Source of the DNA: Leucobacter allii
GTDB taxonomy: Bacteria; Actinomycetota; Actinomycetes; Actinomycetales; Microbacteriaceae
Assembly (NCBI RefSeq): GCF_022919155.1
Contig: NZ_CP095045.1
Location: forward strand, 1,984,001 to 2,048,000
Direction: 5' to 3'
DNA: 64,000 nt
This document shows positions 31,149 through 45,620 of the stretch, piece by piece. The notes beneath the pieces are model-generated. The model was not told the DNA's origin. It saw only the letters and a program-made list of their open reading frames with translations, and made no database searches. Made by a program: the position numbers and the translations under genes. The first letter of the stretch is position 1; every line of letters starts with the position of its first letter.

Positions 31149-32222
31149 ATGGCCGACCCCCTCCTCTTCCAGCCCATCGTCCTCCGCGAGCTCGAGATCC
31201 GCAACCGGCTCTGGGTGGCCCCCATGTGCCAGTACTCGGCGCGGGACGGCATCGTCGGCGACTGGCACCTGCAGCACCTGGGCGGACTCGCCCGCGGCGG
31301 CGCCGGGCTCGTGATCATGGAGGCGACGGCGGTCGTCTCCGAGGGGCGCATCAGCCCGCGCTGCCCGGGGATCTGGGACGACGCGCAGCTGCCCGGTCTC
31401 GAGCGCGTGGTCGCGGCCGCCCACGCGCACGGCGCGCGGATCGGGATCCAGCTCGCGCACGCCGGGCGGAAGGGGTCGACCCACCCCTCCCTCCCGGGGT
31501 TCCCGGACGGCAGCGTGCCGGAGTCGGAGGGCGGCTGGACGACGGTCGCGCCCTCCGCGCTCGCCTTCCCCGGCCTGGCCGAGCCGCGCGCCCTGGACGC
31601 CGAGGAGCTGCCGGGGCTCGTGCGCGCCTTCGCCGACGGCGCCGCGCGCGCCGTCGCGGCGGGCTTCGATCTCGTCGAGATCCACGCCGCGCACGGCTAC
31701 CTGCTGCACGAGTTCCTCTCGCCGCTGTCGAACCGGCGCACCGACGACTACGGCGGCGATCTGGCCGGGCGGGCGCGGCTGCTGCGGGAGGTCGTCCGCG
31801 CGATCCGCGCCGAGCAGCCGGAGCTTCCCGTCATCGTCCGCATCTCCGCGACCGACTGGACCGAAGGCGGGCTCGACGCCGAGGAGTCGACGGCGCTCGC
31901 GGCGCTCATCGCCGCGGACGGCGCGGACCTCGTCGACGTCTCCTCCGGCGCGAACGTGCCCGCGCGGATCCCGGTGGGCCCCTCCTACCAGGTGCCGCTC
32001 GCGCAGGCGGTGCGGCGCGGGCCGCTGCCCGTCGGCGCCGTCGGGCTCATCACCTCCGCGACGCAGGCCGAGGGGATCCTCGCGAGCGGCCAGGCCGACG
32101 TGATCCTCCTCGGCCGGCCCGTGCTCGCGAACCCGCACCTCCCGATCGCCTGGGCGCACGAGCTGCGCGCCCCCGGGGCGGCCGACCTCGTGCCGCCGCA
32201 GTACGCGCGGGCCCGCTTCTGA
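31149..32222 (+). CDS. NADH:flavin oxidoreductase, Old Yellow Enzyme family (YqjM-like)
   Basis: This FMN-dependent ene-reductase acts on activated alkenes. The 357-residue protein shows LWVAPMCQYSARDG, where Cys and Tyr near residues 25-28 are the redox-tuning and substrate residues of the thermophilic-like (YqjM) class. GIQLAHAGRKGS, HAAHGYLLHEFLSPLSNRR (FMN and catalytic region, near 180-200) and DLVDVSSGAN complete the barrel. GGCGDL is not needed for assignment. It is a single gene, closed by a long hairpin shared with the converging ABC cluster. The physiological substrate is unknown; quinones or enones are typical. Confidence 0.93.
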   Translation: MADPLLFQPIVLRELEIRNRLWVAPMCQYSARDGIVGDWHLQHLGGLARGGAGLVIMEATAVVSEGRISPRCPGIWDDAQLPGLERVVAAAHAHGARIGIQLAHAGRKGSTHPSLPGFPDGSVPESEGGWTTVAPSALAFPGLAEPRALDAEELPGLVRAFADGAARAVAAGFDLVEIHAAHGYLLHEFLSPLSNRRTDDYGGDLAGRARLLREVVRAIRAEQPELPVIVRISATDWTEGGLDAEESTALAALIAADGADLVDVSSGANVPARIPVGPSYQVPLAQAVRRGPLPVGAVGLITSATQAEGILASGQADVILLGRPVLANPHLPIAWAHELRAPGAADLVPPQYARARF

Positions 32223-32277: not shown

Positions 32278-33138
32278 TCAGAGCAGGTTCGCCTCCCCCG
32301 GCTCGGCGATCGAGGCCGGGAAGCCGTACTGCTCCGCGAGCTCGGCGATGGTGCCGTCCTCCCGCAGCGCCGCGATGTCGGCGTCGATCGCCTCGCCGAG
32401 GGCGTCGTTCTCGAGATTCACGGGGAAGTTCGTCTGCCCGACGTTGACGGTGGCCGAGAGCCGCTCGTCGGGCTCGATCGGCTCGACCGTCGCCCCCTCG
32501 ACCGGGTAGAGCTCCATGAGCGTCACCGCGGCGCCGAGGCCGAGCACGGCGCCCTCGATGCGCCCCGACTGGAAGTCCGCGAACTCGGCGTCGTTCGTCG
32601 AGTACAGCTTCAACTTGGCGCCGAGGAGCCCCTGGAGCTCCTCGATGCCGACGAGCGCCTGGCCCGCCCCGACGGCGTCGAGCTCCGCGAGCTCATCGAC
32701 CGTGCTGATGCCGCTCGTGGAGACGATCGAGAGCGGCGAGGTGACGACGGGCTCGCTCAGCCGCACGACCTCGGCGCGCTCGGCCGTGCGGTACCAGCTG
32801 CCGAGCGTGGTGTCGGCCCGCCCGGTCTGCACCGAGGTGATCATCGCCGAGGAGTCGCCGGGCACGAGCTCGAGATCGAGGCACTCCATCTCGGCGATCT
32901 TCGCGATGATCTCGCCCTCGATGCCGACGAACTCCCCCTCCTCCATGTACGCGAACGGCGGGTAGTCGTAGTGCGCGACGGTGAGCACGCCGGGCGTGAT
33001 GGTCTCGATGCCCTCGTGCACGGGCACGCAGTCCTCGCTCACGGCGCCGCTCGCCTCCTCGGCTGCGGTGCTGCATCCGGCGAGCAGCAGGGCGGCCGCG
33101 GCGCCGAGGGCCGCGGTGCGGATCAGTCGATACTTCAT
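32278..33138 (-). CDS. Polar amino-acid-type ABC substrate-binding lipoprotein
   Basis: This is the receptor of the amino-acid importer encoded upstream. MKYRLIRTAALGAAAALLLAGC is a lipoprotein signal with lipobox LLAGC (Cys near residue 22). The mature part follows the SBP_bac_3 plan: GVLTVAHYDYPPFAYMEEGEFVGIEGEIIAKIAE, then ADTTLGSWYRTAERAEVVRLSEP, and a C-terminal FPVNLENDALGEAIDADIAALREDGTIAEL in outline. It is 286 residues, complete, and the last gene of the cluster. The ligand is unknown. The neighbouring dipeptidase suggests an amino acid, a dipeptide-like or a cyclic amide compound. Confidence 0.9.
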   Translation of the reverse strand: MKYRLIRTAALGAAAALLLAGCSTAAEEASGAVSEDCVPVHEGIETITPGVLTVAHYDYPPFAYMEEGEFVGIEGEIIAKIAEMECLDLELVPGDSSAMITSVQTGRADTTLGSWYRTAERAEVVRLSEPVVTSPLSIVSTSGISTVDELAELDAVGAGQALVGIEELQGLLGAKLKLYSTNDAEFADFQSGRIEGAVLGLGAAVTLMELYPVEGATVEPIEPDERLSATVNVGQTNFPVNLENDALGEAIDADIAALREDGTIAELAEQYGFPASIAEPGEANLL

Positions 33139-33181: not shown

Positions 33182-33940
33182 TCATACGGATACGGACTCG
33201 ATGCGGCCCGCCGGCTCCTGCGGGCGGTCCGGCCGGACCACCGGGGTCGCACGTGATCGGCCGCCGCGCCGCCGGGGGCGGCGGCCGCCGGCGAGCCGGC
33301 GCTCGAGCCGGCCGGCGAGGATGGCGCCGGGGATCGCGATGACGGCGTAGACGAACGCCGCCGCGATGTAGACGGACATGTAGCGCCAGCTGATCGCGCC
33401 GCTGAGGTACCCGGCGTGCATGATCTCCGCGACCGTGATCACGCTCGCGAGCGAGGTGATGTGGAACATCGTGATCGTGAGGGTGACGAGCGGCGGGATC
33501 GAGACCCGCGCGGCCTGCGGCAGGATGACGAATCGGAAGCGATCGACGCCGCCGAGGCCGAGCGCGTCCGCGGCGTCGCTCTGCCCCCGGGGGATGGCGG
33601 CGATGCTCGCGCGGATCATCTCGGCGGAGTAGGCCGCCGCCCTGAGGGTGAAGGCGACGATCGCGGCCGGCAGCGCGTCGAGCAGCACGCCGATCTGCGG
33701 GAGGCCCCGGTAGACGAGGTAGAGGAGCACGAGCGCCGGGACGCCGCGGCCGATCTCCACGATCCCGATCGCGAGCCAGCGGACCCCGCGGGACCGCGCG
33801 TCGGAGAGCAGCGCGAGCAGGAAGCCGAGCGGGTACCCGATGAGGCAGGAGACCGCGGTGAGCAGGACGGCCACGGCCAGTCCGGGGAGCAGGTTGGGGA
33901 CGTGGGCGGGCCAGTCCCAGAGCCAGGAGTAGTCGTTCAC
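33182..33940 (-). CDS. Amino-acid ABC transporter permease (HisM/GlnP type), second subunit
   Basis: This permease (252 residues) starts at GTG 33940, which overlaps the stop of the companion permease (GTGA). Membrane segments include LLPGLAVAVLLTAVSCLIGYPLGFLLALL and YIAAAFVYAVIAIPGAILAG. The ATPase-coupling loop is QSDAADALGLGGVDRFRFVILPQA near residues 135-160. GRGVPALVLLYLVYRGLP is the typical HisM-family block. The C-terminal 30 residues are Arg/Pro-rich. It is likely to form a heterodimer with the adjacent permease. Confidence 0.9.
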   Translation of the reverse strand: MNDYSWLWDWPAHVPNLLPGLAVAVLLTAVSCLIGYPLGFLLALLSDARSRGVRWLAIGIVEIGRGVPALVLLYLVYRGLPQIGVLLDALPAAIVAFTLRAAAYSAEMIRASIAAIPRGQSDAADALGLGGVDRFRFVILPQAARVSIPPLVTLTITMFHITSLASVITVAEIMHAGYLSGAISWRYMSVYIAAAFVYAVIAIPGAILAGRLERRLAGGRRPRRRGGRSRATPVVRPDRPQEPAGRIESVSV

Positions 33941-34581
33941 AGGACCGCGTACCTCCGGGTCAGGCGGGTGTGGACCACGCGCGACAGCGCGCCGAGCGGC
34001 ACGCTGAGCACGAGGTAGAGCAGCCCCGCGAAGGCGAAGAAGGTGAGGCCGTCGCCGAAGTACTGCACCTGCAGTCCGGCGACGAAGGTGATCTCGGCGA
34101 CGCCGATGGTCGACGCGAGCGCCGATTCCTTGATGAGGCCGACGAGATAGGTGGCGACCGTGGGCGAGACCGCGCGGAAGAGCTGCGGGAACAGCACGTC
34201 CCGCGCGGTGCTCCACGGGCCGAGCCCGAGGGCGGCGCTCGCCTCCCACTGGCCTGCCGTGATGGCGTTGAGGCCGCCGCGGTAGATCTCGGCCATGCTC
34301 GCCACCGCGATCACGCTCAGCGTGATCATCGCGGAGGCGACCGCCGTGAGGGTGATGCCGAGCTGCGTGATGCCGAAGAAGGCGATGAAGAGCCACACGA
34401 GCGTCGGCACGCCGCGCACGAGGTGCACGAAGCCCCAGTAGAGGGCGCGCACCCAGGCGTGGCGGCTGCGCGAGAGCAGCATCACCGGGGCGCCGAGGAC
34501 GATGCCGACGGCGCCGGCCACGGCGGTCAGGAGCACGGTCATCCCCGCCGCGAGGGTGATCGCGAGCAGTGCCTCGCCCAT
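33937..34581 (-). CDS. Amino-acid ABC transporter permease (HisQ/GlnP type), first subunit
   Basis: This is a 214-residue permease with about five membrane helices. It begins MGEALLAITLAAGMTVLLTAVAGAVGIVLG and includes LVRGVPTLVWLFIAFFGI, and the coupling loop QWEASAALGLGPWSTARDVLFPQ near residues 115-140. ATG 34581 lies 2 nt after the ATPase stop, and its own stop overlaps the second permease start. This spacing implies coordinated translation of the membrane heterodimer. Confidence 0.9.
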   Translation of the reverse strand: MGEALLAITLAAGMTVLLTAVAGAVGIVLGAPVMLLSRSRHAWVRALYWGFVHLVRGVPTLVWLFIAFFGITQLGITLTAVASAMITLSVIAVASMAEIYRGGLNAITAGQWEASAALGLGPWSTARDVLFPQLFRAVSPTVATYLVGLIKESALASTIGVAEITFVAGLQVQYFGDGLTFFAFAGLLYLVLSVPLGALSRVVHTRLTRRYAVL

Positions 34582-34583
34582 GC

Positions 34584-35384
34584 TCAGCGCCCCAGCACCG
34601 CCGAGAGGAAGCGCCCGACGCGCTCGCTCTTCGGCTCGGTCATGATCTGCTCGGGCTGCCCCTGCTCGACGATCGCCCCGTCCACCATGACGATGACGCG
34701 GTTCGAGACGTGCCGCGCGAACTCCATCTCGTGCGTCGCGATGAGCATCGTCATGCCCGAGTCGGCGAGCTCGCGCATGACCGCGAGGATCTCGGCGCCG
34801 ACCTCGGGGTCGAGGCCGGAGGTCGGCTCGTCGAAGAGCATGAGCTGCGGGTCCATGGCGAGGGCCCGGGCGATCGCGATGCGCTGCTGCTGCCCGCCCG
34901 AGCACTGGCTCGGGTACGCATCGGCCTTCGCTGCGAGCCCGACGCGCGCGAGCAGCGTCCGCGCGCGATCCGCCGCCTCCTCCGCACTGCGCCCGAGCAC
35001 CCGCTTCTGCGCGAGCTCGATGTTCTGCGCGGCCGTGAGATGCGGGAAGAGGTTGAAGGACTGGAATACCATCCCGGCCTGCCGGCGGAGCCTGGACACC
35101 TGCGCCCGGGCCGGCGCGCGCCCCTCGGCGAAGACGATCTCCTCGTCGCCGATGGCGAGGGAGCCCTCCTCGGGGAGCTCGAGCAGGTTCAGGCAGCGCA
35201 GGAAGGTGCTCTTGCCCGCCCCCGAGGGGCCGATGACGGAGATGACCTCGCCGCGGCCGACGGCGAGCGACACGTCATCGATGGCGCGATGCTCGCCGAA
35301 GCGCTTGACGATGCCCTCCGCGTTGAGGAATGGGCGGAGTGTGGATCCGGTGTACGTCGTCGTCGACGTATCGATCTGGGCCAT
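34584..35384 (-). CDS. Amino-acid ABC transporter ATP-binding protein (GlnQ/HisP type)
   Basis: This is the ATPase of the polar amino-acid importer, 266 residues. Walker A is GPSGAGKSTFLRCLNLLE near residue 50, the Q-loop is VFQSFNLFPHLTAAQNI, the signature is CSGGQQQRIAIARALA (Cys replaces Leu at the first position) and Walker B is LMLFDEPTSGLDPE. The THEMEFA H-loop is typical of PAAT ATPases. A 20-residue Thr-rich N-terminal extension (MAQIDTSTTTYTGSTL) precedes the core. It lies 27 bp after the dipeptidase gene and 2 nt before the permease. Confidence 0.92.
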   Translation of the reverse strand: MAQIDTSTTTYTGSTLRPFLNAEGIVKRFGEHRAIDDVSLAVGRGEVISVIGPSGAGKSTFLRCLNLLELPEEGSLAIGDEEIVFAEGRAPARAQVSRLRRQAGMVFQSFNLFPHLTAAQNIELAQKRVLGRSAEEAADRARTLLARVGLAAKADAYPSQCSGGQQQRIAIARALAMDPQLMLFDEPTSGLDPEVGAEILAVMRELADSGMTMLIATHEMEFARHVSNRVIVMVDGAIVEQGQPEQIMTEPKSERVGRFLSAVLGR

Positions 35385-36408: not shown

Positions 36409-38985
36409 CTAGACGGATGCGGGGTGCGGGGTGGACAGGGAGGCGAGCTGGTCGGTGTCGCGATTCGGATCGCTCGCGTTGGCGACCTCCGCGGGGTCGA
36501 AGAGGCGGGTGAGGCGCTGCCCGGGGACGTAGACGTCCTTCACGGTGCCGGTGTGCTGCCGGGAGAGGGGGGTGTCCGGGTAGAGGCCGGCGTTGCCCGG
36601 GTAGTAGACGTCCCACCACTCCTGCGCCGGAACCTCGAGCCCCTCGGCGATGAGCCGACGGAACGCGCCGCGGTACCGCTCCCGCGTCGCCGCCGGATCG
36701 TCGGAGACCCGCGCCCGCAGTCGCAGGGCGGTCCCGGCGGACCCCGGTACCGCACCGGCGGGATCGGCCCCGGCCTCGACCTCGATGCCGACCCGCGCGA
36801 GCGCGAGCGCGAGCCCGGGCTCCGCGCCGTCGCCCGAGACCCCGTCGAGGCGCACGTCGATCCCGGCCTCGTCGGCGGCCGCGGCGATCGCCTGCACGAG
36901 CACGTGCCCGACCGCGTGCAGGCTCGCGCCGTGGCAGTCGATCTCGAGCGCGCCGCCGGCGGCGCGCGTCGCGCTCGGCGCCCGCCATGCCGGCGCCGAT
37001 CCGTCGTCGGCGATCGCGCGCGACAGGGCGGCGCCGAAGCCCGCGACCGCCGCGGGATCGGCGATGAGCGCGGTCACGAAGAAGTCCCTGGCGCCGTGCC
37101 ACGAGCCCTCGGGGACGTTCAGCGCCTGCATGGCGCGGCCGCCGGCCAGCCGCAGCTCGCGGAACTTCATGGTGATCCGCTCCGCCTCCGGGTGGCGCGG
37201 CGCGCGGATCGCGCTCTCCACGGGGCTCAGCGTCGGCGCGGTCGCCGACACCGGAGCCGCGAGCGCGGCCTCGGCCGCCGCGGCGGGCATGGCGGGGCGG
37301 TACCGCCACCACCAGCCGTCGGCGCGCGCGCCGGCGAGCTCGTCGCGATACGGCGCGCCGTCGAAGATCAGTCCGAGGACCGAGCGGTTGAGGTAGTCCT
37401 CGGTGCGGTCGACGCCGTGGATGAACGCGTTCATGAGGCGCACGAGCCAGACGGGCACGAAGTCGATGTCGTGCGGATCGGCGTGGGGCACGGCGTAGGG
37501 CTGCCCGCGCAGCGCGAGCACCGAGCGGACCATGTGCTCGAGCTCGGGGTGCGCGGCGACGAGCGCGCCGATCGGCGCCGCCGGGTCGCTCGCCGCGAGG
37601 AGATCCGCCAGCTCGCGCGCCCGAGACGGATAGTTCGGGATCACCTCGTGCGCGCCCGGCACCTCCTCTGCCGGGCCGGATCGCGGCTCCTCGGCCGCGC
37701 GGGACTGGTACCAGACGCGGTCGCGATGCGCCGGGTCGTTGAGTGGCAGCTCGAGGGCCCAGCCGAAGACGCCGTGGAGGGCCTCGGCGACGGCGGACAC
37801 GGGGGTCCGCGGATCCCACTCGAGCGTCTCGTCGAAGCTCAGGCGCTCGGCGAGCAGCGCGTCCGCGTGCTCCGGATCCAATTCGATGAGCAGCGAGTTG
37901 AAGGTGTGCAGCGCCTCGGGCGTGACGCGCGCGGCGACGAAGCGGTGCGCGGCCGCGAGCAGCGTCTCCCCGGGGCCGCGGACGATCTCGCCGCGCCGTG
38001 CGGCGCGCACGGCGGCGCGCACCCGCCGCAGGTCGGCGGCGAGCTGCGTGCCGTTCGTGAAGACCCGGTACTGGGTGTCCTCCAGCGCCCGGTACTGGAT
38101 CGTGCGGTCGAGGAGCCGCTCGAGACGGTCGAAGCGCGCGTCGCCCGGCTCCAGCTCGAGCTCGAGGACGTGCGTGACGGCTTCGACCGTGAGCGACACG
38201 TAGGCGTTGATCAGCGCCGGGCGGTTGTAGACGAACATCACGAGCCCCAGGGCGGAGCCGTTGCCGACGCCGATGTTGCCGCGGACCGCGGGATCGAGCC
38301 GCACGGCGGACCCGGGGGCGTCGATGCGGGCCAGCTCCTCCACCACGTCGACCGAGAGCTCGCGCATGAGGTACGCCGAGAGCATCTGCGCGTGGTAGGA
38401 GAGCGCGAGTGGGTGCCCCTTCGGGATCGCGGGGAACGACACCGAGCCGAAGGTGCCGTTGCCGTCGAGGCCCGTGTTGCGCATGAGATACCCGACGCGC
38501 TTCACCTCGGCCGCGTCGGGCTGCTCGCCGGCGGCGAGCGCATCGCGCACGTGCCGGAAGAGCCTGAGGCTCTGATTGGAGCGCATCCAGATGAGCGTCC
38601 CCTCGGGCGCGCGCCCCTCGTAGAGCTTCGGGAGCTCGCGCTCGGAGGCCGCGATCTGGGCGTCGCTCGCGCGACCGTCGATGAGGGTGCCGAGCATGTC
38701 CCAGGAGGTCCCGATGATGCGCCCCGTGCGGTTCTTCCCGCGGGGCTCGCGCAGCCACGCCGCGAAGGTGAGGGGCCCGGCCGGCGTCGTGATCGTGTAG
38801 CGGGCGTCGCCGTTGCCCCGAGCGTCCAGACGCAGATGGTCGCGCTCGATCCGCCAGCCCTCGCGGAGCATGCGGGCGATGAAGCTCCGCGAGGCGCTCA
38901 GCCGGTTCGGCTGCATCGCTCCGAGATTCCTGGGGTCCATCACCCTGCCGGGTGAGAAGACCTCGTCGAGGTAGGGGTTCCGCAT
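36409..38985 (-). CDS. Large conserved-looking protein of unknown family in the dipeptidase/ABC cluster
   Basis: I do not recognise a family. The 858-residue protein has no signal peptide and no convincing membrane helix, so it is predicted cytoplasmic. Notable segments are MRNPYLDEVFSPGRVMDPRN at the start, GRIIGTSWDMLGTLIDGR, LMRNTGLDGNGTFGSVSFP near residues 160-180 and GNIGVGNGSALGLVMFVYNRP near 240. Later come PVWLVRLMNAFIHGVDRTEDYLN-like text near 510, and a distinct C-terminal region with ALEIDCHGASLHAVGHVL and EWWDVYYPGNAGLYPD. A linker near 585-610 separates two possible domains. ATG 38985 (GGAGCGGAAGCG upstream) is preferred over 39042. It is the first gene of the cluster controlled opposite IclR. 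Confidence 0.75.
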   Translation of the reverse strand: MRNPYLDEVFSPGRVMDPRNLGAMQPNRLSASRSFIARMLREGWRIERDHLRLDARGNGDARYTITTPAGPLTFAAWLREPRGKNRTGRIIGTSWDMLGTLIDGRASDAQIAASERELPKLYEGRAPEGTLIWMRSNQSLRLFRHVRDALAAGEQPDAAEVKRVGYLMRNTGLDGNGTFGSVSFPAIPKGHPLALSYHAQMLSAYLMRELSVDVVEELARIDAPGSAVRLDPAVRGNIGVGNGSALGLVMFVYNRPALINAYVSLTVEAVTHVLELELEPGDARFDRLERLLDRTIQYRALEDTQYRVFTNGTQLAADLRRVRAAVRAARRGEIVRGPGETLLAAAHRFVAARVTPEALHTFNSLLIELDPEHADALLAERLSFDETLEWDPRTPVSAVAEALHGVFGWALELPLNDPAHRDRVWYQSRAAEEPRSGPAEEVPGAHEVIPNYPSRARELADLLAASDPAAPIGALVAAHPELEHMVRSVLALRGQPYAVPHADPHDIDFVPVWLVRLMNAFIHGVDRTEDYLNRSVLGLIFDGAPYRDELAGARADGWWWRYRPAMPAAAAEAALAAPVSATAPTLSPVESAIRAPRHPEAERITMKFRELRLAGGRAMQALNVPEGSWHGARDFFVTALIADPAAVAGFGAALSRAIADDGSAPAWRAPSATRAAGGALEIDCHGASLHAVGHVLVQAIAAAADEAGIDVRLDGVSGDGAEPGLALALARVGIEVEAGADPAGAVPGSAGTALRLRARVSDDPAATRERYRGAFRRLIAEGLEVPAQEWWDVYYPGNAGLYPDTPLSRQHTGTVKDVYVPGQRLTRLFDPAEVANASDPNRDTDQLASLSTPHPASV

Positions 38986-39236: not shown

Positions 39237-39944
39237 ATGTCGGGACCCACCACGCTGCAGTCCGTGGAGAAGACCATCCGCGTCCTCGAGGTGTTCCTCC
39301 AGCTCGACCGGGCCACGGTCACGCTCACGGAGGTCGCCGAGGCGCTCGGCTGGAGCCGCCCTGCGACGCATCAGTACCTCACGACGCTCGTCCACTGCGG
39401 CTGGCTGCAGCAGGACGAGCGGCGGCAGTACCGCCTCTCGATCCGCGCGGCGACGTTCGGGCGCTTCGCGACGGCCCACGCCGGCGTGCCCGAGGCCGTC
39501 TCCCGGACCATGCGCGCCCTCGTCGCGCGGCTCGAGGAGCCCATCTCCTTCGCGGTGCGCAACGGGGGGTCGGCGCTCATCGTCGAGCGCGTCGAGCCGG
39601 AGCGCTCGCTGAGCGTACGGCGCGAGGCGGAGCGGCAGCTCCCCCTCGGCTCGACCTCCGGGCAGGTGCTGCTCGCCTTCGACCCGCACGCGAGCGACGC
39701 CGAGCGCGCGCCGCACGCCGAGGCCATCGCCGAGATCCGCGAGCACGGGTACTCCGTCCACCGGGCCGTCTGGATGGGCGACGCCATCGAGGTCGTCGCG
39801 GTGCCCGTCATGCAGGGCGAGGAGTGCCTCGGCGCGCTCAGCGTGATCGCCCCGGAGGGACGGATGGAGATCACGGCCGCGATCGACACCCTCGTCTCGG
39901 CGCGCAACGCCCTCGAGTCGGAGCTCGCGGGCCCGGAGGGATGA
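39237..39944 (+). CDS. IclR-family transcriptional regulator
   Basis: This 235-residue regulator has an N-terminal winged helix (SVEKTIRVLEVFLQL, then TLTEVAEALGWSRPATHQYLTTLVHCGWL, residues about 5-60). The C-terminal effector domain (residues about 70-235) contains ALVARLEEPISFAVRNG, LPLGSTSGQVLLAF and IREHGYSVHRAVWMGDAIEVVAVPVMQ. ATG 39237 has CGGAG 7 nt upstream. It is transcribed away from the 858-residue/M19/ABC cluster and most likely controls it and itself, binding the catabolic substrate or an intermediate. That regulatory link is inferred from gene order and the AT-rich repeats between them. Confidence 0.92.
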   Translation: MSGPTTLQSVEKTIRVLEVFLQLDRATVTLTEVAEALGWSRPATHQYLTTLVHCGWLQQDERRQYRLSIRAATFGRFATAHAGVPEAVSRTMRALVARLEEPISFAVRNGGSALIVERVEPERSLSVRREAERQLPLGSTSGQVLLAFDPHASDAERAPHAEAIAEIREHGYSVHRAVWMGDAIEVVAVPVMQGEECLGALSVIAPEGRMEITAAIDTLVSARNALESELAGPEG

Positions 39945-39983: not shown

Positions 39984-41258
39984 ATGACCCCCGGAGGCGG
40001 AACGGCGCAGACGCTGCGCACCGATGAGCTCCTCGAGCTGCGCATGCGCGCGCTCGGGCTCGCGCCCGGCGGCTGGGAGACGGCCCCGCCGGAGGACTCG
40101 GGTCCCGGCTCCGAGCGGATCGCCGCGGTCGCGCGGCGCATGCTCGCGGTGCAGGGGCAGGACTGGCGGTCGGCGCGCTGGGCGCTGGGCGTCCGCGCCC
40201 CGGGGACGACGATGCGCGACGTCGCCGAAGCGTTCGACGCCGGGCTCATCGTCCGTTCCTGGCCGATGCGGGGCACGGTGCACGTCGTCGCCGCCGAGGA
40301 CATCGGCTGGATGCAGGCGGCGACGAACCACCGGGTGCTCGCCGGCGCGGCGAAGCGCCGCGCGTTCCTCGGCATGAGCGACGCCGCGCTCGACCGCCTG
40401 GTGGAGGTGTCGCTGCGGGCGCTCGACGAGCCCGACGGGCCCGGCGAGCCCGGCGAGCCCGCCGGGCTCGACCGCGACGCCCTCGCCGAGCGCTGGACCG
40501 CGGCGGGCATCGAGTGGCAGAGCTCGTGGCGCTACCACGTCATCTGGTGGCTCTGCCAGAACGGGCTCGCGGTCTTCGGCCCCGTCGGCGACTCCGGGGA
40601 GCCCCGGCTCGTGCGCGCCGAGCGCTGGATCCGCGCACCCCGCGAGCTCGCGGGCGACGCGGCCCTGGGCGCGCTCGCCGCCCGCTACGCGGCCGCCCGC
40701 GGTCCGATCCGGGACCGCGATCTCGCCTGGTGGACCGGGCTCACGCTCGCCGAGGCCCGCGTGGCGCTTCGGGTCGCCGAGGAATCCGGCACCCTCGCCT
40801 CGGTCCGGCTCCGCGACGCCGCGGGCGACCCCGTCAGCGGTGCGGCCGGCGCGCTCTGGGCCGATCCCGCGCAGCTCGGCGGTGCTCCGCTCGGGGGTGA
40901 TCCGCCCGGGGACGCCCCGTCCGGCGCAGGCGCGAGCCGCACGGCGGCGGGCGGTGCCGCGGCCGGCTGGCGGCTCCTCGCCGCATTCGACGAGCACCTG
41001 CTCGGCTATACGGACCGCTCGGCGCAGCTCGATCCCGCGCACTTCGAACGGATCGTGCCGGGGCGCAACGGCATGTTCCTCGCGACGATCGTGCGGGACG
41101 GCCGGGTCGTCGGCACCTGGAAGCGCCTCCCGGGGAAGCACGTGCGGGTCGCGCTCTCCCCCTTCCCCGGCGCGCGGGCGAACCGCCGGGCGCTCGCGCC
41201 CGCGCTCGCCTTCTGGGCCAGATTCCACGCGCTCGACGGGGCCGCGTTCGCCGACTGA
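39984..41258 (+). CDS. Winged-helix DNA-binding protein of the AlkZ (YcaQ) DNA glycosylase superfamily
   Basis: The family consists of tandem winged-helix proteins. Characterised members (AlkZ) excise interstrand-crosslinked or alkylated bases. The QxQ catalytic-type motif occurs in RRMLAVQGQDWRSARWALG near residue 55. The other conserved blocks are LIVRSWPMRGTVHVVAAEDIGWM and FDEHLLGYTDRS with NGMFLATIVRDGRVVGTWKR near the end. Length is 424 residues, with Pro/Gly-rich loops near 150-160 and 300-325. The gene appears leaderless and stands between the IclR gene and an antiporter. Family is confident; actual glycosylase activity is not shown by sequence. Confidence 0.87.
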   Translation: MTPGGGTAQTLRTDELLELRMRALGLAPGGWETAPPEDSGPGSERIAAVARRMLAVQGQDWRSARWALGVRAPGTTMRDVAEAFDAGLIVRSWPMRGTVHVVAAEDIGWMQAATNHRVLAGAAKRRAFLGMSDAALDRLVEVSLRALDEPDGPGEPGEPAGLDRDALAERWTAAGIEWQSSWRYHVIWWLCQNGLAVFGPVGDSGEPRLVRAERWIRAPRELAGDAALGALAARYAAARGPIRDRDLAWWTGLTLAEARVALRVAEESGTLASVRLRDAAGDPVSGAAGALWADPAQLGGAPLGGDPPGDAPSGAGASRTAAGGAAAGWRLLAAFDEHLLGYTDRSAQLDPAHFERIVPGRNGMFLATIVRDGRVVGTWKRLPGKHVRVALSPFPGARANRRALAPALAFWARFHALDGAAFAD

Positions 41259-43085: not shown

Positions 43086-43658
43086 TCAGACGATCTCGAC
43101 GCCCGCCGCTGCGAGTTCCCGGAGGGCCGCCGCGGAGGATTCCGGACGCACACCGGCGACGAGTTCGGAGCGCACCCGGACGCGCAGTCCGAGCCCGACG
43201 GCGTCGAGACCGGAGCGCAGCACGCAGTAGTCGGTCGCGAGACCGACGATGTCGAGCGTCTCGATCCCGCGCTCCGCGAGGACCTCGGAGAGCCGCCGGC
43301 CATCCGTGGTCTCCCCCTCGAATGCCGAGTACGCCGGCTCGCCCATGCCCTTGCGCACATGCACATCGATCCGCGAGACGTCGAGCAGCGGATGGTACTC
43401 GGCGCCCTCGGTGCCCTGCACGCAGTGCACCGGCCACGTCGTCACGAAGTTCGGGTCGACGCCGGCCGGTGCGAAATGCCCGCCATTCGTCCCCTCGGCA
43501 TCGTGCCAGTCCCGTGAGCCCACCACCAGCTCGTAGCGGTCGGGCCCCCGCAGCAGCCCCCGCACTCCCTCGGCGACGGCGTCGCCGCCCGCGACGCCGA
43601 GGGCGCCGCCCTCGGTGAAATCGTTCTGCACGTCGACGATGAGCAGTGCTCGCGCCAT
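43086..43658 (-). CDS. pncA: Nicotinamidase (isochorismatase-like hydrolase)
   Basis: PncA deamidates nicotinamide to nicotinate for NAD salvage. The 190-residue protein has the catalytic Asp in LLIVDVQNDFTEGGAL, the metal-binding segment SRDWHDAEGTNGGHF, TWPVHCVQGTEGAEYHPLL, a likely catalytic Lys in HVRKGMGEPAYSAFEG, and the nucleophile Cys in VGLATDYCVLRSGLDA. ATG 43658 is supported by GAGGAGAGGACG upstream. It converges with the antiporter gene, 29 bp apart. Confidence 0.93.
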   Translation of the reverse strand: MARALLIVDVQNDFTEGGALGVAGGDAVAEGVRGLLRGPDRYELVVGSRDWHDAEGTNGGHFAPAGVDPNFVTTWPVHCVQGTEGAEYHPLLDVSRIDVHVRKGMGEPAYSAFEGETTDGRRLSEVLAERGIETLDIVGLATDYCVLRSGLDAVGLGLRVRVRSELVAGVRPESSAAALRELAAAGVEIV

Positions 43659-43806
43659 GATCCGCGTCCTCTCCTCGCCGCGGCGACCCCGGCTCACCGA
43701 CGCCCCCGCGTGTCCCGACATCCGTCGCCCCCAGACTACGGTCCGGGCGCGCCCCGCGTCGAGAGGGACGCCAGGGGAACGCCCGAGCGCGCCGCCTCGC
43801 CTCCGC

Positions 43807-44304
43807 CTACCGCTCCCCGCGGAGCGGGTTCTGGTGATGGCTGAAGACGATGCTCGTGCGGGTCGAGGAGACCGCGGGGTGCGCGGAGAGATGCTCGACC
43901 ACGAAGTCGCGGACGTGATCGGAGTCGCGTGCCGCGAGATGGATGATGAAGTCCTCCACGCCGCCGAGGAAGAACAGCTGCATGACCTCGGGCTGCGCCC
44001 GCAGCTCCTCGCTGAGCTCCGTGATCCGCTGGCGGGCGCCCGAACGCACGGTCACGCTCACGAGCACCTCGAGGTCGAGCCCCATGGCCCGCGGATCGAC
44101 GGTCGCCGTGAAGCCCGTGATGATCTTGCGGGAGACGAGGCTGCGGACGCGCGCGATGCAGGTCGACGCCGCGACGCCCACGCGCTCCGCGAGCTCGGCG
44201 TTCGTGATCCTGCCGTTCGCCTGCAGCTCCTCGATGATCCTGCGATCCACGTCGTCGAGATCCGCCTCGTGACGCAGATTCTTCGACGCATCAGCCATTT
44301 TCAT
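43807..44304 (-). CDS. Lrp/AsnC-family transcriptional regulator (likely alanine dehydrogenase regulator)
   Basis: The 165-residue regulator has a helix-turn-helix (DDVDRRIIEELQANGRITNAELAERVGVAASTCIARVRSL, shown here only in outline, residues about 17-57) and the RAM ligand-binding domain (LEVLVSVTVRSGA and MQLFFLGGVEDFIIHLAARD). It is divergent from ald. In mycobacteria the equivalent AldR controls ald in response to alanine, so that role is inferred here. ATG 44304 (GAAGGGCGG immediately upstream) and ATG 44298 are both possible. The 188-bp intergenic region is relatively AT-rich, as expected for Lrp sites. Confidence 0.9.
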   Translation of the reverse strand: MKMADASKNLRHEADLDDVDRRIIEELQANGRITNAELAERVGVAASTCIARVRSLVSRKIITGFTATVDPRAMGLDLEVLVSVTVRSGARQRITELSEELRAQPEVMQLFFLGGVEDFIIHLAARDSDHVRDFVVEHLSAHPAVSSTRTSIVFSHHQNPLRGER

Positions 44305-44354
44305 CCGCCCTTCGCTCGATTGAGCACAACTTTACTGGAATGTCCCGAAGAGAA

Positions 44355-44386
44355 TTCAGGAAACAACCTCGAAACACGAATATACT
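44355..44386 (+). promoter_or_regulatory. Probable ald promoter
   Basis: TATACT (44381-44386) is a near-consensus -10. The best -35-like element at 17-nt spacing is AGGAAA (44358-44363), which is poor, suggesting activator dependence. A, T-rich tracts flank it. The 5' leader to ald would be about 100 nt. Confidence 0.55.
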
Positions 44387-44492
44387 GCAAAATTGAATGC
44401 GTACCGGCATCATCCCCGTGCGCGCTGCGTCGCCGCGCGGCAGACGATCCGGCGCACCACTCCATCATCCGCAGATTCCTCAGGAGCATCTC

Positions 44493-45620
44493 ATGCGCGT
44501 CGGTATCCCCACCGAGATCAAGAACAACGAGAACCGCGTCGCGATCACGCAGGCCGGGGTCTTCGAGCTGACCCGCCGCGGCCACGAGGTGCTCGTGCAG
44601 GCCGGCGCGGGGCTCGGCTCGATGATCACCGACGACGAGTACGTCGCCGCCGGCGCGAAGATCGTCGAGGGCGCCGACGACGTCTGGGCGCAGGCCGACA
44701 TGATCCTCAAGGTGAAGGAGCCCATCGCCTCCGAGTACGCGAAGCTCCGCAAGGGCCAGGTCCTCTTCACCTACCTGCACCTCGCCGCCGACAAGGAGCT
44801 CACGGAGGCCGTTCTCGCCTCGGGCACGACGGCGATCGCCTACGAGACCGTGCAGCTGCCCAACCGCGCGCTCCCCCTCCTCGCCCCCATGTCCGAGGTC
44901 GCCGGCCGGCTCTCGGCGCAGGTCGGCGCGTACAGCCTCATGAAGGCGAACGGCGGCCGCGGCATCCTCCTCGGCGGCGTCACCGCGACCCGCCGCGGCA
45001 AGGTCGTCGTCATCGGCGGCGGCGCAGCCGGCGAGCAGGCCGCGCGCATCGCCTACGGCATGGGCGCCGAGGTCACCGTGATCGACATCGCGATCCCCCG
45101 CCTCAAGCAGCTCGAGGACGAGTTCAACGGCCGCATCCAGACCCGCACCTCGAATGCGCACAACATCACCGAGGCGCTCAAGGACGCCGATCTCGTCATC
45201 GGTTCCGTGCTCATCCCCGGCGAGAAGGCGCCGAAGCTCGTCACCGACGAGATGGTGGCGCAGATGAAGCCGGGCTCCGTGCTCGTCGACATCGCCATCG
45301 ACCAGGGCGGCTGCTTCGAGAACTCGCGTCCGACCACGCACGACGATCCCACCTTCCAGGTGCACAACTCCATCTACTACTGCGTCGCGAACATGCCGGG
45401 CGCGGTCCCCGAGACCTCGACCGCGGCGCTCACCAACGCGACGCTCCCCTACGTCGTCGCGCTCGCCGACAAGGGCTGGGTCAAGGCGCTGAACGACGAC
45501 GCGTCGCTCGCCAAGGGCCTGAACGCGCACGACGGCGTGGTGGCCTTCAAGGGCGTCGCCGACGCCTTCCCGGAGCTCGCGTACTCGCCGCTCGAGGATG
45601 TGCTCGCCGCGAACGCGTAA
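44493..45620 (+). CDS. ald: Alanine dehydrogenase
   Basis: Ald is an NAD-dependent enzyme interconverting L-alanine and pyruvate plus ammonium. The 375-residue protein begins [20 protein letters not shown]. It carries [13 protein letters not shown] (catalytic Lys), [13 protein letters not shown] (catalytic His), the Rossmann [20 protein letters not shown] near residue 175 and [27 protein letters not shown] lies 7 nt upstream of ATG 44493. The divergent Lrp-type regulator probably controls it. Confidence 0.97.

Follow-up and report, generated by a model that had tools for sequence, protein, structure and literature searches.

A new protein family paired with an atypical M19 protein in importer clusters, with a fused member in Leucobacter allii

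Introduction

The ectoine-type degradation clusters combine an importer with a peptidase-fold enzyme, a class III aminotransferase and a succinate semialdehyde dehydrogenase-like enzyme, and in these respects resemble the cluster described here, which lies on a 64,000-nucleotide stretch of the Leucobacter allii genome (NZ_CP095045.1, positions 1,984,001 to 2,048,000; the whole stretch is hereafter called the window) and includes the gene for an 858-residue protein made of two parts, N and C. The ectoine-type clusters differ in that their peptidase belongs to a family other than M19, and they are not known to contain a counterpart of N or C. The canonical dizinc ligands of peptidase M19 (membrane dipeptidase) are an HxD motif, a bridging Glu and two His. 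In Sinorhizobium, a putative dipeptidase is reported together with an ATP-binding cassette (ABC) transporter (PMC3687685). No published account of the N/C-M19 module was found by title or abstract in the open-licence literature of PubMed Central.

The N part represents a new protein family

The N part belongs to a real, widespread and unnamed protein family, for which no solved fold was found. The fused gene, its parts and its partner gene in the window are as follows.

36409..38985, minus strand: whole fused N-C protein, 858 amino acids, ATG at 38985, stop at 36409
37294..38985, minus strand: N part, residues 1-564, a new family for which no match among solved folds was found (alignment of 109 sequences, N-only AlphaFold2 model, fold searches)
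37186..37293, minus strand: linker, residues about 565-600, at the junction of the two genes; predicted local distance difference test (pLDDT) score 51 at residues 571-580 and 63 at 581-590; length varies in alignment A1
36412..37185, minus strand: C part, residues about 601-858, a truncated Ldh_2-like domain that lacks SHG; most relatives encode it in a gene of its own, of about 240 amino acids
35412..36398, minus strand: M19 protein of atypical type, nearest to 2I5G among solved structures, the constant companion of N

The original prediction, made from the sequence of the window, held that the 858-residue protein is of no recognisable family. This holds for the N part, for which family and profile searches gave no known family (the window protein matched no Pfam family at E ≤ 1) and fold searches with a confident N-only model gave neither a solved relative nor a solved fold, but fails for the C part, which has a truncated Ldh_2-type fold. 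That N belongs, as a very remote member, to a known fold (a fumarase/aspartase-type helical lyase, or a helix-grip or uricase-like sheet) missed by these searches is, in our estimate, rather improbable.

Across the 109 aligned sequences, 43 N residues are invariant, including eight Arg, three Asn, two Gln, two Glu and one His, and the invariant polar residues include R28, R33, R89, R135, N137, R141, Q155, R169, N176, H191, Q200, R208, N242, E432, E433 and R435. Neither Lys nor Cys is found among the invariant residues, which speaks against a universal pyridoxal phosphate lysine or a cysteine nucleophile.

The open reading frame (ORF) itself is preceded directly by a ribosome-binding-like purine-rich stretch, and is not a product of chance because 700 homologues at E ≤ 0.001 were identified among 8000 scored candidates. 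Its ATG, stop and length were confirmed, and the three motif-like blocks quoted in the original prediction were located at residues 167, 236 and 789. The protein had also been described as free of signal and membrane segments, and hydropathy agrees: judged from Kyte-Doolittle means only, the protein is unlikely to have a membrane segment, since no hydrophobic N-terminus was detected (the top 19-residue mean within the first 40 residues is -0.04) and the highest mean of the whole protein, 1.69 at residue 636, coincides with a helix that the model places in the Ldh_2-like part.

N and C are fused in a single clade

The window protein is a fusion of N and C parts that are encoded by separate genes in most relatives. 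Among the 120 listed matches, rows P0002-P0057 span 87-100% of the query, and those from P0058 onward, about 545-590 amino acids long, span just 64-67%. For comparison of gene order, 80 loci were taken as the best of 146, with many near relatives and near-identical rows included; in most of these an N gene (about 572 amino acids) stands apart from a C gene (about 240 amino acids), followed by the M19 gene, gene calling yielded C as a gene of its own at 60 of the 80, and in some Actinomycetota an IclR gene sits between N and C. The gene caller was home-made and fails in the lower-GC loci L089 and L091, which were read from ORF lists.

In a quick 81-row tree, made without bootstrap and with five split N proteins (L030, L037, L044, L059 and L061) left out because the motif used for cropping was not recognised in them, the 15 fused rows group together in a single clade (SH-aLRT 100). 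These 15 fused loci are exactly the 15 loci with a PAAT-class importer, so that fusion and importer change coincide in this sample. The genome of the window carries in addition a second, split copy of N, with its own IclR, M19 and RidA genes and a divergent Dpp-type importer. Members of the family are present in Leucobacter, Brevibacterium, Streptomyces and other Actinomycetota, and in Rhizobiales, Rhodobacterales, Azospirillum and Paraburkholderia.

The C part is a reduced Ldh_2-like domain

The fold of the C part is that of Ldh_2 (PF02615; type 2 malate/L-lactate dehydrogenase, ureidoglycolate dehydrogenase, delta1-piperideine-2-carboxylate reductase), from which it differs in retaining only about 190 of about 340 residues and in lacking the SHG motif, whose histidine we take to be the catalytic one; hhalign shows a gap opposite the S-H of SHG. 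Thus, a complete NAD(P) site with the catalytic His is not present in the C part. The C part of the window protein does not reach the PF02615 cut-off (38.8 bits), eight of 36 separate C proteins match PF02615 at E ≤ 10 (best 8.3e-5), the C protein of L089 gives 30.8 bits (E 2.2e-7), and precomputed PF02615 assignments are attached to five of the 120 listed homologues. One distant C-like protein exceeds the cut-off of DUF3726 (23.1 vs 22.1); genome scans for DUF3726 gave 0/1 and 0/10 genomes, but the controls also gave 0/14, and hence these scans are uninformative.

Constant association of N with an atypical M19 protein

An M19 gene is present in all 81 N loci, as the next called gene in 78, and at 40 of the 81 there is a 4-base overlap between it and the gene before it. 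As to the remaining three, another ORF was called in L033 and L057 within gaps of 627 and 759 bases, where the C gene is expected, with M19 after it, and in L032 the M19 gene lies 5.5 kb away. Two less selected sets, genomes of the phylum and of the genus, were added as a check on the 80 best loci. N was detected in five of 296 phylum genomes, that of the window included, and M19 follows directly in the other four (4/4); in the genus, 14 of 54 Leucobacter genomes carry N in 19 copies, and for every copy an M19 match lies no more than 1.5 kb from that of N, on the same strand (19/19, counted by eye from tables). N is therefore patchy and accessory. No N without M19 was seen in the 81 loci, the four distant actinobacterial loci or the 19 Leucobacter copies. 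The co-occurrence of homologues with M19 and importers, which the original prediction had named as a check, was thus found, and scatter without these neighbours was not seen.

Among the 19 Leucobacter copies, one is split over two contigs and four carry an in-frame stop; a single such stop was observed in some N copies of genomes G306, G313, G314 and G324. Given these stops, the module in Leucobacter may decay as well as spread.

The M19 partner matches PF01244 with 234.7 bits against a cut-off of 26, and its closest chain in the PDB is 2I5G, presumably PA5396, called only 'amidohydrolase' in its title (E 9.6e-59; next chain 3e-25). The partner is thus close to the 2I5G subgroup of peptidase M19, and the full set of dizinc ligands was not found in it. 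In place of the DGHND-type HxD near the N-terminus, D-x-L-x-C was detected in 78 of the 81 partners, the other three being missed by the pattern; the position of the bridging Glu is occupied by Gln (G-x-Q-N) and that of one active-site His by Tyr (QLTYN) in all 81, and the two later His motifs are kept in 80. A crude H-x-D pattern within the first 30 residues is present in 38 of the 81, but in rows of alignment A3 its place is a few residues further on (C-G-H-F-D), without conservation. By these Gln, Tyr and D-x-L-x-C replacements, the partner is not an orthodox dizinc dipeptidase. What had been called a variant M19 hydrolase is accordingly M19 and variant, and the word hydrolase is uncertain, as canonical metal-ligand residues are absent.

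The same data bear on a peptide or amino-acid pathway with M19 as an ordinary dipeptidase, for which the strong PF01244 match and the PAAT importer here, Dpp-type elsewhere, could be taken as support. Since the Gln and Tyr replacements are universal among the partners and the closest solved relative by far is 2I5G, we regard such a pathway as highly improbable.

Alternatively, N, C and M19 might make up one composite enzyme, in which N supplies residues to, or shapes, the ligand-poor M19 pocket, C as a dehydrogenase piece holds the assembly, and N alone is non-catalytic. In line with this model are the constant pairing, the correlation of N and M19 distances (r 0.95 over 3240 pairs, uncorrected for shared ancestry; the C correlation took in 75 of the 81 loci) and the incomplete motifs of both M19 and C. 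On the other hand, in five of the 14 N-bearing Leucobacter genomes an M19 of this type (40-42% identity) is encoded away from any N match, and the alignment shows Gln and Tyr at these positions in 2I5G as well, indicating that the existence of this M19 is independent of N. We therefore consider the composite enzyme unlikely.

Importers and neighbouring genes

The genes downstream of the M19 gene, and the divergent regulator, are as follows.

34584..35384, minus strand: PAAT-type ABC importer ATPase
33937..34581, minus strand: ABC importer permease 1
33182..33913, minus strand: ABC importer permease 2, of uncertain exact start
32278..33138, minus strand: solute-binding protein, family 3 (PAAT), its start being the ATG that opens a lipoprotein-like signal
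39237..39944 (start approximate), plus strand: divergent IclR-type regulator

From the stop of the 858-residue ORF to the M19 ATG (36398) there are 10 bases, within which AAGGAG is found, and M19, the ATPase, two permeases and the family-3 binding protein follow in this order; the linkage, the full importer and the IclR gene in divergent orientation all match the original description. Just past the binding-protein gene, on the opposite strand, lies a gene for an Old-yellow-enzyme-type flavin mononucleotide oxidoreductase (window 31149-32222). The IclR gene is adjoined by that for an AlkZ-like DNA glycosylase family protein (39984-41258), and farther along are an isochorismatase-domain protein (43086-43721) beside an AsnC regulator, and this regulator itself, of Lrp/AsnC type, in divergent orientation to an alanine dehydrogenase/PNT-family gene (43807-45620).

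Importers and neighbours were classed from any gene in the fetched stretch, adjacent or not, and the names of neighbours were taken from one or two members chosen to represent each sequence cluster. The importers of the 81 loci are PotD-type in 42 (and two more that also have Dpp-type genes), PAAT in 15 (including L006, the stretch of which ends before the binding protein), NMT1-type in 10, aromatic-acid-type major facilitator superfamily (MFS) in five, Dpp-type in five and unclassed in two. A named class was thus given to 79 of the 81 stretches, and those of L041 and L081 end inside a PotD-type binding-protein gene. The expectation of PAAT ABC neighbours was borne out as to importers in general, PAAT itself being confined to the fused clade. 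At the distant loci, BCCT (L090), OpuAC (L091) and another MFS (L089) importer were identified. For the PotD-type binding protein of L031, the closest chain is 4i1d (no ligand in its title), followed by 4eq7, which presumably binds gamma-aminobutyrate (GABA), and by GABA-sensor and mannopine/agropine-binding chains.

Recurrent neighbours among the 81 loci are IclR (55), a thiamine pyrophosphate (TPP) enzyme (31), RidA (21), a GabT-like aminotransferase (18), aldehyde dehydrogenase (17) and a PuuR-like regulator (11). A biosynthetic or detoxification operon, for instance one modifying an imported compound instead of catabolizing a nutrient, might be patchy, multi-copy and in places interrupted by stops, as any accessory function; dehydrogenase, decarboxylase, aminotransferase and dedicated importers, however, fit degradation, and no resistance gene was found among about 20 named neighbour clusters (names were given to roughly half of the 40 largest). 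This alternative thus appears very unlikely.

A third M19 of the same atypical type is encoded at about 711 kb of the same genome (G000:C1:711601-712572; L104:7542-8591), with no N or C. Its operon shares with N loci the M19 type, an aldehyde dehydrogenase and an NMT1-type importer, and differs from the window in having a flavin amine oxidoreductase, which stands as if in the place of N/C, and a gene for a muconolactone-isomerase-like protein.

At L091, an OpuAC binding protein is encoded upstream of N, and beside this distant N-M19 pair, on the opposite strand (L091:4359-8018), are Ldh_2, alpha/beta hydrolase, AA_synth and luciferase-like genes, which look like another small-molecule pathway. 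Ring cleavage of the homarine/trigonelline type, suggested by the OpuAC, luciferase-like and AA_synth genes, was rejected, since the latter two are on the other strand and were seen at this single locus.

Discussion

The original prediction of a layout for substrate uptake and degradation agrees with the importer, M19 and the recurrent catabolic-type neighbours, its amino-acid substrate and its key enzyme being putative, and the cluster is very probably a catabolic uptake module. Taken as a whole, we favour on balance the reading that N/C, M19 and importer act together as an accessory module that catabolizes a small imported zwitterion, namely a carboxylate resembling an amine or amino acid. 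Within this module N/C, with or without M19, is probably catalytic. The importers, the kin of the binding protein, the recurrent genes and the amine-oxidoreductase operon together suggest a small zwitterionic, amine-bearing nutrient and a step at a C-N bond; that N/C acts specifically at this bond is a tentative proposal, and a GABA- or betaine-like substrate is a guess.

In the proposed scheme, the importer would carry the zwitterion into the cell, where N/C, with its arginine- and asparagine-rich conserved core, would perform an early step, most likely at a C-N bond, giving a product at the level of imine, enamine or aldehyde. M19 might take the next or the same intermediate, and in some relatives RidA, TPP decarboxylase, aldehyde dehydrogenase and GABA-type aminotransferase could pass the product to central metabolism. 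IclR presumably regulates the module.

Several observations weigh against this scheme. There is no catalytic template for N/C. RidA, TPP enzyme, aldehyde dehydrogenase and GabT are common genes, each found in a minority of loci, and were counted without background control; among the 15 PAAT-type clusters, to which that of the window belongs, TPP enzyme and aldehyde dehydrogenase occur once each, and RidA and GabT not at all. The varied importers may represent different substrates in different clades. Finally, position 427 of N is Lys in at least 90% of the N-only set and Gln in the window protein, and lysine chemistry is, from residue conservation, possible for the split clades.

Import-and-degrade operons are ordinary, and here it is the largest gene for which no family name, solved relative or solved fold was found; the module is ordinary in kind and the N protein is not. 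More speculatively, N could be the founder of a new enzyme fold, its active site rich in arginine and devoid of invariant Lys and Cys, which together with an M19 barrel put to new use and a piece cannibalised from Ldh_2 would cleave or rearrange the C-N bond of a widespread natural zwitterion, in a pathway across Actinomycetota and Pseudomonadota new to biochemistry. With a fixed core of N, C and atypical M19 combined with interchangeable importers, identification of the substrate might give a function both to the new family and to the 2I5G subgroup of M19.
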